Below are positions 272 to 12,037 of a stretch of 64,000 bases of DNA, piece after piece. A model generated the notes under the pieces. The model worked only from the letters and a program-made list of their open reading frames with translations. It ran no database searches and was not told where the DNA came from. The DNA comes from Plantactinospora soyae (GTDB taxonomy: Bacteria; Actinomycetota; Actinomycetes; Mycobacteriales; Micromonosporaceae): assembly GCF_014874095.1 (NCBI RefSeq), contig NZ_JADBEB010000001.1, forward strand, positions 5,208,001 to 5,272,000, written 5' to 3'. Position 1 is the stretch's first letter. Every line of letters begins with the position of its first letter. The translations under genes and the position numbers were made by a program.

Positions 272-319
272 TTAACCGACGGGCGGCCGGTGACGCTCGA
301 CGTTGCTATCGTGCCTGCG

Positions 320-688
320 ATGAGCCCAGAGCAACCACGACGTAGCGTAGGGCGACGAGGTTCCAAGTCGGGACAGGACCCCCTCCAGAGGTATCAGCAG
401 GAGGTCGCGGCACTGCGGGAGAGTTCCCTTCGTCTGTTTCGCAACGCGCTCGCGAACGTCCCGATCTTCTTCGCGGTTGTCTCAGGGTTCCTGATTCTCT
501 CGGGCGACGTCACGCCTACGACGCTGGTCCCGATGTCGTTGAGTGTTGTCGGCGGGGCCTTCGGCATCGTCACCTATCTGGTGGGCGACCAACCCGCGCT
601 GGCCCGTCGCCTGCTCGTCGCCGCGGTGGTCTTCGCCGCGATGGGCCTGGCCGGCATGATCCTGGTGAGAGTGGTGATCGAAGCATGA
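320..688 (+). CDS. Small three-span membrane protein
   Basis: I do not recognise a named family. About 45 hydrophilic, basic residues are followed by three hydrophobic segments (around residues 46-63, 68-85 and 95-115), so it should sit in the cytoplasmic membrane with a cytosolic N-terminus. ATG at 320 is chosen; a GTG at 290 in the same frame would add ten residues. The layout (short charged helix, then tightly packed membrane spans, next to a protein with a conflict-system motif) recalls the associated membrane domains of actinobacterial defence systems, but no diagnostic motif is visible. It precedes the GmrSD-like gene by 217 bp of sequence with no gene. Confidence 0.5.
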   Translation: MSPEQPRRSVGRRGSKSGQDPLQRYQQEVAALRESSLRLFRNALANVPIFFAVVSGFLILSGDVTPTTLVPMSLSVVGGAFGIVTYLVGDQPALARRLLVAAVVFAAMGLAGMILVRVVIEA

Positions 689-905: not shown

Positions 906-3440
906 ATGGTGGCGGCACGGGAGACGACGCTGCAAGAGTTGTTGGAGGGCTCGAAGCAGTATCAGGTGCCGCTGTACCAGCGTACGTATTCGTGGACCAC
1001 GGAGCAGTTCGAGCGCCTGTGGGAGGACATCCTCAAGATGGTGGAGGACCGGGCTGCCGGAGCGAGCGGAACGCACTTCATCGGCTCCGTTGTACTGGCG
1101 CCCAGCCCCGCGAACGGTCCGGCGGGCGTTCAGGAGTTTCTGGTGGTGGACGGCCAGCAACGGCTCACCACCCTGTCCCTCCTGCTCTGCGCCATCCGCG
1201 ACCACCGCGCCGAACACGAGCACCCCGAGCACCGGGACCGGATCGACCAGCAGTACCTGATCAACAAATGGAAACCGGAGCAGCACCGCTCAAAGCTCGT
1301 ACCCACCCAGGCCGACCGGGCCGCCTACCTGGCCTGCCTGGACGCGACTCCACAGGCGGGCGGTAGCGACCAGGTCGGTGCGGCGTACCGGTTCTTTACC
1401 GCGCAGCTCGCCGCCGCCGACGACCCGGACGACCCCCTCGACATCGAACGCATCGAGGACGCCGTCATCTCGGGACTGGGACTGGTCTCGGTCACCGCGC
1501 AGCCGGGCGACAACGTTTATCGGATCTTCGAGTCTCTCAACAACACCGGGCGGAAACTCACCCAGGCTGATCTGCTGCGCAACTACCTCTTCATGCGGCT
1601 GCCCACCCGAGGCGAGGCCGTCTACCACTCCCTGTGGCTTCCACTCCAGAAGAAGCTGACCTCCAACGAGCTTGAGCTGCTCTTCTGGCTCGACCTGGTG
1701 CAGCGGGACGCCCGGGTCAAGCAGACGGACATCTACTCCGGGCAGCGGGACCGGCTCAACCGGATGCGATCCGAGGAGGAGATCGAGGCGGAGGTGCGGC
1801 GTTTCAGCCGCCTCGGAGCCCTCCTCGGGACCATCCTCCATCCGAGCGAAGAGCAGGACCCCGGCGTACGGCGGCGACTCGAGCGACTGAGCGCCTGGGG
1901 TACGACCACCGTCTACCCGCTCCTGCTGCACCTGCTCGACCGTCGGGAGCAGCAGACGGCGACCTCCGCACAGATCGCCTCGGCGATGCTGTACGTCGAG
2001 AGCTTCTTCGTCCGGCGTCTCGTCATCGGCCGGGCCACCGCCAACATCAACCGTATCCTTCTCTCGATCGTCACCGAGATGAGCGAGGAACTGCCGGTCG
2101 ACGAGGCGGTTCGGGCATACCTGTCGGCCGGCCGGAAGCACTACGCCACCGATTCCAGCGTCCGTACCGCAGTGCCGTCGATGCCCTACTACCTGAACGG
2201 CCGCCCGCATCAGCGCAATCTGGTGCTCCAGTGGCTGGAGGAGTCGTACGGCAGCAAGGAAGCGGTGGCGCTGGACTCGCTGACCGTCGAGCACGTGATG
2301 CCGCAAACAGCCACCACGGAGTGGCGGCAGATGTTGGGCAGCGACCTCGGGCCCGAGGAGAACTTCGCCGAGGCGCATGACGCCCTGGTCCACACGCTCG
2401 GAAACCTGACCCTCACCGGCTACAACTCCGAACTGAGCAACAGCTCGTTCGCGGTGAAGCGCGTCAAACTGGCAAAGAGCGGGATCGCCCTGAACCAGGA
2501 GATCGCCGCCCAGGTCCGCTGGGGACGCGGCGAGATCCACGCCCGCGCCGATTCCCTGGCCGACCGCATCATCTCGATCTGGCCGGGGCCCAGCACCGAG
2601 GAGGCGGACAACAGGTCGGCGGTGCTCTGGGACCTCATGCACAAGGCACTCGCCGAGCTTCCCGCCGGTTCCTGGACCACGTACGGCGACGTTGCCGCAC
2701 TGATCGGCAGCCACCCGGTGCCTGTCGGCGCCCGGCTCGCCACCTACCCGGCCCCGAACGCGCACCGGGTCCTCCAGGTCGAAGGCACCGTCTCACCCGG
2801 CTTCCGGTGGGCAGACCCGACCCGTACCGAGGATCCTCGGGATCTGCTGCGGGCCGAAGGCGTGGAGTTCGACAGGTATGAGCGGGCCAACCAGGCGCAG
2901 CGGATCGTCGCCGAGGAGCTGGCGCAGTTGGCCGGCATGACGCCGGGGGATCTGCCCGGTCCGCGCTCGAATCGGGACCTCCCGTACGCCGACCGGTTCG
3001 TCGAGCAGCTGACAGACCTACAGAGTCCGAAGGTGGCCAACGCGACCCTCGCCGTTCTCGAGGCCTGGACCGGGATGGGCGGGACCCTTGGCTACGGCAG
3101 CGGCGGGGAAACCTCGTGCTTCCTGCTGGCACGGGGCAAGGAGCACGAACTCGGCAACATCTGGCCCGCGGCGATCTACCCGAGCGGAAAGTTCGAGATC
3201 GTGTTCCAGCACCTGAGCGTCCGTACGCCGTTCGACGACGTCACCCTTCGGGAGGAGCTTCGGCAGCGGTTGAATCAGCTTCCGGGCGTGGATATCGCCG
3301 CCGCGAAGATCGCTCTTCGCCCTGGCTTTCCCTTGGAGGTCCTCGTTGATCCGACGGCCCGCGACGCGTTACTCGAACATCTCGGCTGGTTCTACGAACA
3401 GGCCCAGATGCCTACCCCGGACGCATCGGTCGCGGTCTAG
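906..3440 (+). CDS. GmrSD-like (DUF262/DUF1524) nuclease fused to an alkyltransferase-like domain
   Basis: 844 residues from ATG 906, preceded by GGGAGA; an upstream GTG at 834 in frame is less likely. The N-terminal DUF262 part has PLYQRTYSW (22-30) and VVDGQQRLTTL (80-90), the hallmark of the ParB-like NTP-dependent GmrS half. The DUF1524 HNH part has VEHVMPQT with H463, followed by HTLGNLTLTGYN, as in the GmrD nuclease half. Single-chain GmrSD enzymes cut modified (glucosylated or methylated) phage DNA. Unusually, residues about 575-680 resemble an alkyltransferase-like fold: WTTYGDVAALIG from W590 and PNAHRVLQVEG (618-628), where the reactive Cys of the MGMT motif PCHR is replaced by Ala. 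A further domain of about 160 residues, not recognised, completes the protein. The ATL part could recognise bulky modified bases (inference). Confidence 0.85.
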   Translation: MVAARETTLQELLEGSKQYQVPLYQRTYSWTTEQFERLWEDILKMVEDRAAGASGTHFIGSVVLAPSPANGPAGVQEFLVVDGQQRLTTLSLLLCAIRDHRAEHEHPEHRDRIDQQYLINKWKPEQHRSKLVPTQADRAAYLACLDATPQAGGSDQVGAAYRFFTAQLAAADDPDDPLDIERIEDAVISGLGLVSVTAQPGDNVYRIFESLNNTGRKLTQADLLRNYLFMRLPTRGEAVYHSLWLPLQKKLTSNELELLFWLDLVQRDARVKQTDIYSGQRDRLNRMRSEEEIEAEVRRFSRLGALLGTILHPSEEQDPGVRRRLERLSAWGTTTVYPLLLHLLDRREQQTATSAQIASAMLYVESFFVRRLVIGRATANINRILLSIVTEMSEELPVDEAVRAYLSAGRKHYATDSSVRTAVPSMPYYLNGRPHQRNLVLQWLEESYGSKEAVALDSLTVEHVMPQTATTEWRQMLGSDLGPEENFAEAHDALVHTLGNLTLTGYNSELSNSSFAVKRVKLAKSGIALNQEIAAQVRWGRGEIHARADSLADRIISIWPGPSTEEADNRSAVLWDLMHKALAELPAGSWTTYGDVAALIGSHPVPVGARLATYPAPNAHRVLQVEGTVSPGFRWADPTRTEDPRDLLRAEGVEFDRYERANQAQRIVAEELAQLAGMTPGDLPGPRSNRDLPYADRFVEQLTDLQSPKVANATLAVLEAWTGMGGTLGYGSGGETSCFLLARGKEHELGNIWPAAIYPSGKFEIVFQHLSVRTPFDDVTLREELRQRLNQLPGVDIAAAKIALRPGFPLEVLVDPTARDALLEHLGWFYEQAQMPTPDASVAV

Positions 3441-3555
3441 GCGGTACGTCCAGCCGCACCCCGTCGGCTGCCCCTTCGGTGACCGTCGGTAGAGGACAGT
3501 GACTCTGGACGCCGGCTGCTATCTTTGGCTCAACTCTGACGCAGGGAGCGCTTCA

Positions 3556-3831
3556 TTGTCGGACGAAAGTGAGTACATCCACGCGCTTCGAAGAAGGGCG
3601 GCGGATGTTTCAATAGCGTTCGGCCTCTTGATGCTCTACATCATGATCGCCCCGGGCGAGATCTCGCCTGCTCTGCCGGGGCAGATTGCGTGTGTCATTG
3701 GCGGGGGACTGGCAATTGGTGTCTACCGTGCACCCGAAACGTCCCAGTCGCGCCTGTTCAGCCTGTGGTCGGCGGTCATGACAGTTGTGGGACTAGTTGG
3801 GGTCGCGCTGGCTATATCGCTTGCCAAGTAG
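3556..3831 (+). CDS. Small membrane protein, unknown function
   Basis: Ninety-one residues if started at TTG 3556, which has GGGAG at 3544-3548 about 8 bp upstream; GTG 3499 in the same frame gives 110 residues but lacks such a site. A short charged N-terminus is followed by three hydrophobic segments. It lies 17 bp before the WXG100-like gene and may be cotranscribed with it. No family is recognised. In size and layout it resembles the membrane protein at 320-688, so the two could be related parts of one accessory region (inference). Confidence 0.45.
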   Translation: MSDESEYIHALRRRAADVSIAFGLLMLYIMIAPGEISPALPGQIACVIGGGLAIGVYRAPETSQSRLFSLWSAVMTVVGLVGVALAISLAK

Positions 3832-5520: not shown

Positions 5521-7476
5521 TCAGGGACTGGTACAGGTGGGCGAGGCCGGTGGCGTGTTGCTGCCGTTCCAATTGGCGAGGAAGCCGAACGTGGTGCTGC
5601 CGTTCGCGCTCAGGCGGCCGTTGTAGGCGGCGTTGCGAACCGTGACGTCGTCACCGTTGCCGGCGACTGAGCCGTTCCAGAGTTGGCTGATCCGTTGACC
5701 GCCGGGGAAGGTCCACCGTACCGTCCAGCCGTCGACCGCGGCGGCGCCGGCCCGCACCGCCACTTCCCCCTGGAAGCCGCCCGGCCACTGACTGACGATC
5801 CGGTACGCGACCGTGCAGGCCGAAGCCGGGGCAGTGGTCGGGGGAGTGGTGGGCGGCGTTGTCGGGGCTGCCGTGGGTGGCGTGGTCGGCGGCGTGCTGG
5901 GTGGCGTGGTCGGGCCGGCGGGGAGCGAGAATGCGTAGAACGTGGTGCTGGTGGCGCCGAGACGTTGGTAGCCGTTACCCCAGTAGAGCGTGCCGTCGAC
6001 GATCGCGGGGCCGGCATTCGAGGCGCCCGCGCCCTGGTACTCCCACAGCACCTCACCCGTGGCGGCGTCCAACGCGTACATGTAGCCGTTCAGGGAGCCG
6101 TAGTAGACCACCCCGTTCGCCGTGGTGGCGGGACCGACCGCCAGGCCGCCGTGTGGTTCGGGTACCTGCCAGAGGATCTCACCGGTCGCCACGTCCAGCG
6201 CCCCGAAGGAGCTGTAGTCGATGGTTTCGCCGTTGGGCAGCTCGTACGGCTCCCGGTCGTAGTCGGTCTCGGCGAAGAAGATCCGCTCGCCGTCGTTGGC
6301 GGTGCCCCACTCGATGCCGCCCAGCACCGAACCCGGCCCGACCGACGCGCTCCAGATGATCTCTCCGGTCACGGCGTCGAGCATCCAGAACTCGCCGCTC
6401 TTCTGACCGGCGCCGACGGCCCGGCGGGGCTGACCGTCCGGACCGGGAATGGTGAACAGGTGGGTGCCGTCACTGGTGTCGTGGTCCGGGCCGGGGTTCG
6501 GGCAGTTGTTCGGCGGAAAGCCGGGTATGCAGGCCAGGTTCCAGGCGTCGAAGCGGGACGGCCCGGTCGACCACTTGATCTCACCCGTGGTCAGGTCCAT
6601 CGCGAGAATCGAGTCCTTGGCGTTCCATGGCGGCAGGCACTCCTGCGGGGTACCGCCGTTGGTCTGGCACTCCTGGGCGCTCTGCGGGATCGAGTAGTTC
6701 TGGCCGGTACCGACGAAGACCGTGTTGCTTCCCGGGTCGATGGTGGGGGTACTGCCCCAGACCGACGCGCCGCTGAAGATGTCGCCGCCCGGGCCCTCCT
6801 GTTCCGGGAGGGTGTGGCTCTTCCACAGCACCTCCCCGCTGGCGGCGTCGATCGCCACCAGGCTGCCCCGGAACGTGCAGCAGTCGTACGCCGGGTCGCC
6901 GGCCTGGAGGAACTCCAGTGAGGAGACGCCCTGGTAGATGACACCCGCGTAGATGGCCGGCGACGAGGTGAGTATCGCGTCCGGGTGCGGGTCCATCGCG
7001 GTGTTCCAGCGCAGGTCGCCGGTCTCGGTGTCGATCGCCAGCAGGCGGCCACCGGCCTGGGTGCCGATGTAGGCGGTGTCGCCCGCCACGAGCGGGCTGG
7101 TCCGGGCGAAGGTGTCCGGGATGCCGGCGTACTCGGGAACCGAGCGGGACCAGATCACCTCGCCGGACTCCGCGTCGACCTTCCAGAACGTCCCACCCCA
7201 GTCGGGGAAGTAGACGGCGCCGTCGACGACGGCCGGCGTCGCGGATACGTCGCCGCTGGTGGTGGCGGTCCAGTCGACCTCCAGGTCGCCCACGCTCGAC
7301 GGGTCGAGAAGTTGTTCGGCCGGATTCGACCGGGTGTTGCTGATGTCGTGTCCGCCCATCGCCCATTGTGCGCCATCCTGGGCGCTTGCTGGTGGTGCGT
7401 GGACCACCGGTACGAGCGCCACCACGCATGCCATGGTCAGCGCGGACGCGCCCACGGCGCGTCGAATTGTGCTCAT
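5521..7476 (-). CDS. Secreted PQQ-type quinoprotein with C-terminal CBM2
   Basis: 651 residues from ATG 7476 (AAGGGGG just upstream); an in-frame ATG at 7521 would run through the operator-like repeat. Residues 1-32 are a Sec signal peptide ending ASA. The body is a beta-propeller with repeated blade motifs of the type AxxGEVxW (for example 102-109, 211-218). It resembles quinoprotein dehydrogenases of the polyvinyl-alcohol-dehydrogenase type, including WGSTPTIDPGS and VFVGTGQNYS. Adjacent cysteines C199-C200 match the vicinal disulfide that stacks on PQQ in methanol dehydrogenase-like enzymes. A Pro/Thr linker (around 530-560) leads to a family 2 cellulose-binding module with terminal Cys residues and surface Trp. 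Likely role: extracellular PQQ-dependent oxidation of a carbohydrate at a polysaccharide surface (inference). Substrate is unknown, and a haem c motif is absent. Confidence 0.8.
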   Translation of the reverse strand: MSTIRRAVGASALTMACVVALVPVVHAPPASAQDGAQWAMGGHDISNTRSNPAEQLLDPSSVGDLEVDWTATTSGDVSATPAVVDGAVYFPDWGGTFWKVDAESGEVIWSRSVPEYAGIPDTFARTSPLVAGDTAYIGTQAGGRLLAIDTETGDLRWNTAMDPHPDAILTSSPAIYAGVIYQGVSSLEFLQAGDPAYDCCTFRGSLVAIDAASGEVLWKSHTLPEQEGPGGDIFSGASVWGSTPTIDPGSNTVFVGTGQNYSIPQSAQECQTNGGTPQECLPPWNAKDSILAMDLTTGEIKWSTGPSRFDAWNLACIPGFPPNNCPNPGPDHDTSDGTHLFTIPGPDGQPRRAVGAGQKSGEFWMLDAVTGEIIWSASVGPGSVLGGIEWGTANDGERIFFAETDYDREPYELPNGETIDYSSFGALDVATGEILWQVPEPHGGLAVGPATTANGVVYYGSLNGYMYALDAATGEVLWEYQGAGASNAGPAIVDGTLYWGNGYQRLGATSTTFYAFSLPAGPTTPPSTPPTTPPTAAPTTPPTTPPTTAPASACTVAYRIVSQWPGGFQGEVAVRAGAAAVDGWTVRWTFPGGQRISQLWNGSVAGNGDDVTVRNAAYNGRLSANGSTTFGFLANWNGSNTPPASPTCTSP

Positions 7477-7496
7477 CGTAGACCCCCTTACGAGTG

Positions 7497-7517
7497 AGAC
7501 ATATCCATAGACATATC
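7497..7517. promoter_or_regulatory. 9-bp direct repeat upstream of quinoprotein gene
   Basis: AGACATATC occurs twice (7497-7505 and 7509-7517), 12 bp start to start, in an AT-rich patch 21-41 bp upstream of the quinoprotein start. The position suits a regulator-binding site or promoter element. The cognate regulator is unknown. Confidence 0.4.
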
Positions 7518-7629
7518 TCAATGTAGAGGTCGATTCAAGAACGTTGGCGCCGATTTACGCGATATTCACGCACGCAGGGCCGGGCAATGCGCTCTGCCCG
7601 GGTTGACGCGTCGACGGGACCCGGCCGGG

Positions 7630-10960: not shown

Positions 10961-12037
10961 TCAGGTGGCTCGGCAGGACGGTGTCATGCCCGATCCGCTG
11001 CCGGTGCCCTGGAAGCCGAACTCGGTCGACTGACCAGCGGCGATCCGGCCGTTGAAGCTCACGTTGGTGAACGTCACGGCGCCACTGGTGCCGCTGCGTT
11101 GGGTGTTCCAGGAGCTCGTGATCGCGGCTCCGGACGGCAGGGTCATGCTCACGGTCCAGCCGTTGGTGCCGGACGAGCCGGCCGTCACCCGTACGGTGGC
11201 GACGAAGCCGCCGTTCCAGGAGTTGAGTGTCACCCCGGCGGAGCAACCGCCCTGGGTGGGCGGGTTCGTGGGCGGGTTGGTCGGCGGGTTCGTGGGTGGG
11301 TTGGTCGGGGGATTGGTGGGTGGGTTGGTCGGCTGGGTGCCGTCGGGCGCGACGGCACGGCCGGTGCTCGGGGAAATCATCCCGGGGCAGAGGCCGCGGC
11401 TGCTGAGGTTGGCGACGATCTGCGCTATCGCGTTGATGGTGGTCTGGTAGCCGTCGTGCATCAGGATCACGCCGCCGTTCTGGAGCGTGGACGCGGCCTG
11501 GACGATCTGGCTGGTACTCGCGCCGTTCCAGTCCTGGGAATCCACGCTCCACAGCACCTCGGTGAGGCCGAGCTGGGCTTCGACCGACTTGAGCGTCGCG
11601 TTGGTCTCGCCGTACGGAGGACGGAACAGCCGGGGTGCGCTACCGGTGGCCTGCTGGATGGCCTGCTGGGTCTGGCTGAGCTCCGAGGTCATCTGGGCGG
11701 CGCTCATCTGGGTCAGGTGCGGGTGGGTCCAACTGTGGTTCCCGATCCACATGCCGGCCGACTGCTGCGCCCGGACCAGCGCCTGGTTCTGCTGTGCCTT
11801 CTGCCCGATGTTGAAGAAGGTGGCCCGTGCGCCGGCCGAGGTGAGCGCGTTGAGCAGCGCGTTGGTGGTGCCGGCGTTGGGGCCGTCGTCGTAGGTCAGT
11901 CCCACGTAACCGTTGCACGGCGCGGCGGCGACCGGTGGTGCCGCGACGGTGATAGCCACGGCGCCGGCGGCGATGGCCAGGGCGAAGGTGGCGAGCGTGA
12001 CGCACAGGCGTCTCGGTACTCGACGTGGACGGGGCAT
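10961..12037 (-). CDS. Secreted polysaccharide deacetylase (CE4) with C-terminal CBM2
   Basis: 358 residues. Residues 1-39 are a twin-Arg-rich Sec-type signal peptide ending AAA. The NodB/CE4 domain (about 43-225) has motif 1 TYDDGPN (48-54, catalytic base and metal Asp), motif 2 HSWTHPHL (H101 and H105 metal ligands), motif 3 RPPYGE and motif 5 LMHDG. A PTNP-repeat linker joins it to a family 2 cellulose-binding module (Cys near each end, conserved Trp). Members with this build are acetylxylan esterases or chitin/peptidoglycan deacetylases. The cellulose-binding module favours a plant cell-wall role (inference). Transcribed toward the effector operon and separately promoted. Confidence 0.9.
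   Translation of the reverse strand: MPRPRRVPRRLCVTLATFALAIAAGAVAITVAAPPVAAAPCNGYVGLTYDDGPNAGTTNALLNALTSAGARATFFNIGQKAQQNQALVRAQQSAGMWIGNHSWTHPHLTQMSAAQMTSELSQTQQAIQQATGSAPRLFRPPYGETNATLKSVEAQLGLTEVLWSVDSQDWNGASTSQIVQAASTLQNGGVILMHDGYQTTINAIAQIVANLSSRGLCPGMISPSTGRAVAPDGTQPTNPPTNPPTNPPTNPPTNPPTNPPTQGGCSAGVTLNSWNGGFVATVRVTAGSSGTNGWTVSMTLPSGAAITSSWNTQRSGTSGAVTFTNVSFNGRIAAGQSTEFGFQGTGSGSGMTPSCRAT
11257..11330. repeat. 12-bp repeats encoding the PTNP linker of the deacetylase
   Basis: About six near-identical 12-bp units encode the P-T-N-P linker between the CE4 domain and the CBM2. Third-base differences show the units are diverging. Such low-complexity linkers change length by slippage. Confidence 0.7.

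Follow-up and report, generated by a model that had tools for sequence, protein, structure and literature searches.

Single-chain type IV restriction enzymes such as GmrSD, BrxU, and Eco94GmrSD join DUF262 and DUF1524 domains in one polypeptide and carry DGQQR and HNH-type motifs. In the accessible part of a 2015 survey, the GmrSD motifs and their meaning are defined (section 14), and DUF262 is predicted to use nucleoside triphosphates (NTPs) and the HNH part to cut (Machnicka et al., PMC4619093). BrxU, a GmrSD enzyme, is ATP-dependent; glucosylated cytosine is its preferred substrate, followed by the methylated and hydroxymethylated forms. The available text of the 2025 report leaves open whether it recognizes them by flipping the base, through a specific pocket, or in some other way (PMC12409352). 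The survey also reports PF01035 (DNA_binding_1) in several GmrSD homologues, mainly from Streptomyces. Here we analyze a protein encoded in a 64,000-nucleotide stretch of the genome of Plantactinospora soyae, a soil actinobacterium (NZ_JADBEB010000001.1, positions 5,208,001 to 5,272,000; hereafter the window). Its gene (906..3440, + strand) is an uninterrupted open reading frame of 844 residues, about 285 of which extend beyond the C-terminus of GmrSD, BrxU, and Eco94GmrSD as an alkyltransferase-like (ATL-like) domain followed by a C-terminal domain (CTD). A preliminary description of the gene had taken it for a candidate phage-defense variant. The architecture is not new; the same combination of nuclease and DNA_binding_1 was already present in the survey, the accessible text of which makes no mention of cysteine loss, arginine-finger loss, the CTD, a helicase, McrB, or other architectures. 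On balance, we favor the interpretation that the protein is a type IV-like, single-chain GmrSD restriction nuclease whose ATL-derived module reads DNA, and that it would cut modified foreign DNA.

The Window Protein Is a GmrSD-Type Nuclease

Both nuclease domains are recognized by Pfam above their curated cut-offs in the single chain. GmrSD_N (DUF262, ParB/Srx-like, with an NTP site) covers residues 9-229 (930..1592, +; E 1.1e-36, 127.3 bits versus a cut-off of 33.2), and GmrSD_C (DUF1524, an HNH nuclease) covers residues 415-553 (2148..2564, +; E 1.6e-22, 80.3 bits versus 23). The motifs are intact: GmrSD_N contains QR at 25-26, DGQQR at 82-86, and FESLN, an FxxxN motif, at 208-212, and GmrSD_C contains the HNH-type residues E462-H463, N500, N507, and N512, with N507 and N512 as alternative candidates for the metal ligand. 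A 40-row homologue alignment shows all of these residues conserved at 95% or more. The protein is a GmrSD-type nuclease, in agreement with the preliminary assignment of DUF262 and DUF1524. The best PADLOC model is Orf5 (482 bits), followed by HEC-06, with the type IV REase model lower. DUF262 homology extends to SspE-type proteins (SspE 6jiv, E 4.1e-5; PADLOC SspE, 79 bits), but Orf5 fits far better, and no Ssp or Dnd gene is found among eight neighboring genes scanned. Starts were compared for 11 family orthologues: 10 share MVAA-x-ET, and the exception (L099) has V for M. The source genome is a single contig of 9.7 Mb, which its relatives place in the Micromonosporaceae. Among named relatives, Plantactinospora alkalitolerans comes nearest in the C-terminal part (94%).

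An ATL-like Domain without the Reactive Cysteine or the Arginine Finger

The ATL-like module, which corresponds to the MGMT C-domain, comprises residues 569-680 (2610..2945, +) and was examined by Pfam, profile comparison, hhalign, and AlphaFold with Foldseek. Pfam places DNA_binding_1 at residues 580-653 with E 2.5e-6 and 27.7 bits, barely above the cut-off of 27. A profile built from 29 such domains retrieves Schizosaccharomyces pombe Atl1 as the top PDB match (E 1.9e-9), then the Vibrio parahaemolyticus ATL (2.2e-8), both before every alkylguanine transferase (AGT). Against ten standalone PCHR-type proteins of the MGMT family, hhalign reports 98.6% (E 7.5e-16). When an AlphaFold model of residues 565-844 (six aligned sequences; pLDDT 70.9, the highest of five models, the lowest having 39.4) was used in a Foldseek search of the PDB, ATL and AGT structures occupied all ranks 1-26, led by the V. 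parahaemolyticus ATL and Atl1, with a best E-value of 0.0036 and none below 0.001. The full-length model, likewise from six sequences, had a pLDDT of 41.5 and was set aside as too poor. The match is more than chance, and the assignment of an MGMT/ATL fold with its helix-turn-helix (HTH) to residues ~569-680 is solid; the structure prediction and profile search called for in the preliminary description thus return the fold that it anticipated. A tree was built from 83 of 105 ATL-like domains (108 columns; 4 fragmentary and 18 closely related Micromonosporaceae rows excluded beforehand). With its deep forks unresolved, 26 of its 80 inner branches open, and some rows only partly filled, we base no claim on it.

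The key residues place the domain close to the ATL family, yet not within it. The domain contains WTTYGDV (residues 590-596) and PNAHRVL (617-623), and the position of the reactive cysteine is A619, giving NAHR rather than the PCHR of AGT/MGMT proteins. An alkyltransferase-like domain lacking this cysteine had been proposed, and the profile, hhalign, and Foldseek results concur. Y593 and H620-R621 are retained, and F633/W635 and E651 are present. V605 lies opposite the arginine finger in both the Atl1 alignment and hhalign, and the stretch before HRV (the hinge) is about three residues shorter than in Atl1 and PCHR-type proteins. The domain shares the fold, the HTH, the tyrosine, and the missing reactive cysteine with Atl1 and the V. 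parahaemolyticus ATL. Unlike these ATLs, it has Ala for the usual Trp, Asn for the preceding Pro, no arginine finger, and a fusion to a nuclease. As described in the available section 3.5 of PMC10779285, ATLs share the arginine finger with AGTs, and both the tyrosine and the finger are kept for base flipping. Because the finger is absent, we dropped the label ATL and refer to the window domain as ATL-like only; for the same reason, it is doubtful that the domain flips bases in the manner of ATLs. Given Val605 and the shorter stretch before HRV, bulky O6-alkylguanine should not be presumed to be bound. The likeness to ATLs that bind bulky bases, as first suggested, therefore holds for the fold and the missing cysteine but not for the finger or the hinge.

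The profile search of the related loci gave 105 distinct segments, 62 of them in GmrSD-fused frames. In these 62 copies the cysteine position is Ala (58), Arg (2), Gly (1), or Ser (1) and never Cys, while the loop Arg is kept in all 62, the Tyr in 58, and the F633-W635 pair in 57. Replacement of Cys in every copy, with the loop Arg and the aromatic pair conserved, indicates that the pocket region is kept without an alkyl acceptor. The finger position is occupied by Val (31), Gln (19), Arg (6), Met (3), Ala (2), or Leu (1); it is thus not Arg in 56 of 62 copies, and none of the 44 copies with a CTD has Arg there. Twenty other frames of at least 400 residues have Trp (seven: six McrB-like copies and L177) or Ala (seven) among the residues at the cysteine position, with no Cys. 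Among 23 short frames with an ATL-like segment, 10 have the Cys and 16 the finger Arg. Four further PF01035 matches occur in the window's genome, of which two have PCHR and one PWYR, each with the finger arginine. Because the genome carries these ordinary MGMT-family members, the repair role has other holders.

The C-Terminal Domain Is a Separate Module

Residues ~690-840 (2973..3425, +) form the CTD. The last ~160 residues had been described as unrecognized, and this stands in that the last ~150 match nothing in Pfam, the PDB, or NCBIfam, which was searched with the whole protein and has no match to any part of it; the region is nevertheless a module of its own that recurs on other nucleases. 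Among 15 members of the CTD group, no Pfam family is shared by two or more and the best PDB sequence match is no better than E 0.15; no Foldseek fold match of the 565-844 model can be assigned to the CTD. The CTD is also attached to NucS/PDC-S11-like nucleases, whose PDC-S11-like part scores 47 bits in P0008 and 28 bits in P0009, and to further frames of other kinds. GmrSD-ATL proteins without a CTD are also common. In L122, the CTD and the nuclease remain and the ATL part is degenerate; in L081/L120, the CTD remains although the ATL part is degenerate. A 659-residue frame (L123:7972-9948) has an ATL-like domain and, at scores below cut-off, a part like Mrr_N and a stretch like HEPN. It also has a possible diverged CTD, although L123 is itself a row of the CTD profile.

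Comparison with nine orthologues gives dN/dS values of 0.06-0.31 for the nuclease part (residues 9-560), 0.06-0.32 for the ATL-like part (569-680), and 0.08-0.48 for the CTD (690-840), from which we conclude that all three are maintained by purifying selection. Against the nearest relative (L003), the values are 0.06-0.08 in all three parts. The distribution is patchy: a match spanning the C-terminal third is found in 39 of 354 genomes of the family, and five more (G632, G654, G687, G702, and G703) are split or broken, possibly through assembly errors. The viral contigs and phages searched contain no relative of the C-terminal third, and the C-terminal part has no match in PHROGs. One relative lies on a plasmid, a 134-kb Streptomyces replicon; the 20 kb around it that were inspected also hold a Tn3 transposase and type I-E cas genes. 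The window's genome contains a second GmrSD-ATL copy (G000:C1:6082670-6084703; L002, L096), which is 51% identical, lacks the CTD, carries one in-frame TAG, and differs from the window copy at the finger position (Arg instead of Val).

Related Domains in Other Restriction Architectures

In 388 genomes of the class, the profile gave 30 matches at E ≤1e-16, 27 of them in open frames of at least 400 residues; this enrichment of long frames is partly by construction because some of these genomes supplied profile rows. Frames of 100-200 residues, presumably ordinary MGMT/ATL proteins, begin at 1.4e-13. The partners of the ATL-like domain are varied. It is found with GmrSD and RAMA in P0010, with NucS_C (below cut-off; PADLOC PDC-S11, 169-171 bits) in P0004 and P0005, and with N6_Mtase and Methylase_S, as a methylase-HsdS fusion, in P0007. 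RAMA is a predicted modification reader.

The domain also stands ahead of the motor in AAA_5 McrB-like proteins, as identified by Pfam in L133, L167-L171, and L173; L174-L176 are McrB-like by profile match and position only. Mrr_N is above cut-off in L133, L168, and L170, weaker in L167 and L169, and not listed in L171 and L173. A McrC gene (PF10117) adjoins the McrB-like gene in all three cases tested (L133, L174, and L176; E 1.5e-39 to 2.4e-54). The motor and nuclease of McrBC differ from those of the window protein, which has none of the McrBC parts. Pfam DNA_binding_1 is not above cut-off in the McrB-like proteins (E 0.029 in L133, unlisted in six others). When nine McrB regions were aligned alone, however, Atl1 was the top PDB match (E 9.6e-5); the same regions scored 99.6% against the 29-row profile, which set their boundaries and contains one McrB row (L133), and 90.3% against the PCHR-type proteins. 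Six McrB-like copies have Trp at the cysteine position, and five have Ala in place of the Tyr. In two genomes (G874 and G1032), GmrSD-ATL and McrB-ATL genes lie ~6.5 and 10 kb apart. Judged from the sequences, the ATL-like domain may be an undescribed specificity domain of McrB.

These relatives strengthen the earlier suggestion that the window domain reads DNA for a restriction-type enzyme, a role that is likely. Among the matches listed in open-access PMC, only PMC4619093 reports ATL-like domains in restriction proteins. The main text of a McrBC census (PMC11090510) contains none of the terms MGMT, alkyltransferase, methylguanine, and DNA_binding_1, and the accessible parts of PMC11037411 and PMC3874153 hold nothing on such domains in restriction proteins. 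As far as searched, the ATL-like relatives in McrB-like, NucS-like, and methylase-HsdS proteins and beside RAMA, the CTD on other nucleases, and the helicase linkage described below are new. The occurrence of these relatives in several restriction-type proteins suggests an overlooked mode of recognizing modified foreign DNA.

Several observations on individual relatives stand apart from this argument. Short frames of 128-275 residues from several genomes of one genus (L182-L185) carry an ATL-like domain with no nuclease in the same frame; L183, the only one of them scanned with Pfam, has RAMA in front of it. In the NucS-like and RAMA-GmrSD group (L084, L086, L126, L012, L124, and L125), a CxxC pair directly precedes the NAHRVL-type motif and could perhaps bind a metal. 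In a 711-residue frame (L177:3796-5928), ~600 residues in which Pfam matches nothing lead up to an ATL domain of canonical type, with Tyr, Arg, and PWHR.

Helicase Linkage and Defense Context

Of the 29 Micromonosporaceae loci compared (L038-L066), 17 have a gene for a UvrD/GajB-like helicase that starts 30-130 bp downstream of the nuclease gene on the same strand, and in 5 of the other 12, a 78-87% identical helicase is found 1.8-18 kb away on the same contig. The helicase of L104 has 716 residues, and its best PADLOC model is GajB, a defense helicase. In the distant relative L118, a helicase with 44% identity lies directly upstream; the gene is mostly absent from 29 other 20-kb loci outside the Micromonosporaceae group. 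This pairing resembles Gabija, the nuclease of which is GajA. In contrast to Gabija, however, the nuclease here is GmrSD-type and the window has no helicase beside it, and a classification as a Gabija variant was dropped on both grounds.

Association with other restriction genes was examined by leave-one-out tblastn, using 13 restriction-type queries from this group's own loci and excluding the own locus. Of 40 loci fetched, the 20 on long contigs (19 GmrSD-ATL and 1 McrB-ATL) were compared with 40 control regions at fixed positions on the same contigs. Restriction-type genes were near 11 of 20 loci and 1 of 40 controls (Fisher p 4.9e-6, a guide only because of the origin of the queries, the choice of long contigs, and the fixed control positions); without the UvrD query, 7 of 20 loci remained. 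One match of the McrB locus is its own McrC. On occurrence in defense islands, a point raised in the preliminary description, the results diverge: the related loci have such neighbors more often than the controls, whereas the window's own 20 kb gave no match and is not a defense island by this test.

Proposed Mechanism and Alternative Explanations

Our studies allow us to outline how the protein may act. The ATL-derived module would scan duplex DNA through its HTH, and a modified base could be held in the active-site pocket emptied by the change of Cys to Ala. The nuclease would then cut foreign DNA bearing that modification, with NTP use and cutting assigned, by family resemblance, to its own ParB/Srx NTPase and HNH parts. 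The CTD may be a second, exchangeable module that binds DNA or a partner. The UvrD/GajB-like helicase of many Micromonosporaceae orthologues may process the cut DNA; by comparison with these, the window copy would have lost the helicase or never had one. By analogy, restriction would be aimed at modified rather than plain DNA, and the protein may have a role in phage defense. Because the loop Arg, the aromatic pair, and mostly the glutamate are kept without the acceptor Cys, and in the company of restriction architectures, we infer that the ATL-like domain contributes recognition. The fold's ancestry prompts the guess that the target is a guanine derivative. Actinophages carry 7-deazaguanines. 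A GmrSD enzyme with a separable candidate reader makes the question of GmrSD recognition testable by domain deletion and swap, and should the ATL-like domain read bases, a specificity module derived from a DNA-repair sensor would have gone unnoticed in several restriction families that share it.

Tentatively, the proposal could be widened. The MGMT/ATL fold, its pocket without Cys and mostly without the finger, might be a general bacterial restriction specificity module (GmrSD, McrB, NucS-like, methylase-HsdS, RAMA) that reads a modified phage purine, perhaps a guanine derivative such as 7-deazaguanine, and drives a nuclease-helicase two-gene defense in Micromonosporaceae. We regard this broader version as possible but doubtful.

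Several findings weigh against a reading module in the window protein that serves restriction. The arginine finger is absent from the domain. BrxU itself already selects modified cytosines, according to the available text, so that a separate reader is not required (PMC12409352). The window's genome has no close helicase, the best match being E 1.6e-13. Nine of the 20 loci in the defense test, including the window's own, lack a restriction-type match, and the test drew its queries from the same group, used selected case loci, and placed its controls at fixed positions.

Some of these points would be met if the ATL-like domain were a general or sequence-specific winged HTH anchor for DNA or a protein contact, any recognition of modified bases residing in the GmrSD core. 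This is unlikely, though a serious contender. It accommodates the missing finger in 56 of 62 GmrSD-fused copies, the shorter hinge, the replacement of Tyr by Ala in five McrB-like copies, and the degenerate ATL parts of L122 and L081/L120, where the CTD (in L122 also the nuclease) remains. It would also fit BrxU, which reads modified cytosine and for which the available text mentions no ATL-like part (PMC12409352). However, an invariant loop Arg and an F633/W635 pair kept in 57 of 62 copies are more than would be expected of an anchor, and the recurrence beside RAMA also speaks for an ATL-derived reader.

An improbable alternative is a damage-directed nuclease, a self-contained relative of the ATL/nucleotide-excision pathway that would cut at bulky alkyl adducts, in the cell's own DNA or from a DNA-alkylating metabolite, with the UvrD-like helicase removing the strand. 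UvrD takes part in excision repair, a UvrD-family helicase is a frequent neighbor, and ATL-EndoV fusions exist in archaea. ATLs act with excision repair, as the accessible part of PMC10779285 states. In contrast, the GajB model of the helicase, the related domains in McrB-like and methylase-HsdS proteins, the patchy spread (39 of 354 genomes), the lost finger, and the retained ordinary MGMT-family genes all argue against this alternative. Finally, a decayed or moonlighting copy that no longer restricts without its helicase partner is very improbable: the missing helicase, the in-frame TAG of the second copy, and the split relatives (in which assembly errors are possible) would fit it, but the window's reading frame and all motifs are intact, dN/dS against L003 is low in all three parts, and relatives without a nearby helicase, such as L003 and L105, are intact as well.

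Neighboring Genes

Among the eight window neighbors scanned with Pfam, an NB-ARC-TPR protein, a DUF6879 protein, and a DUF5753 regulator were recognized; the others have no match above cut-off. Small hydrophobic proteins flank the nuclease gene (290-688 and 3499-3831), and homologues occupy the same places in the nearest relative, L003. The upstream gene (290..688, +) ends 217 bases before the nuclease gene and encodes a protein with two hydrophobic stretches and no Pfam match. Its homologue in another genome of the genus (L101) lies ~80 bp upstream of the orthologue, and a partial match in L003 ends ~190 bp upstream. This small protein is a possible member of the cassette. Further along the window, on the minus strand and as judged by eye from the translations, 5521-7521 encodes a PQQ-type repeat protein and 10961-12037 a polysaccharide deacetylase-like protein; in both, Thr/Pro linkers lead to a C-terminal region that looks carbohydrate-binding and is similar between the two.

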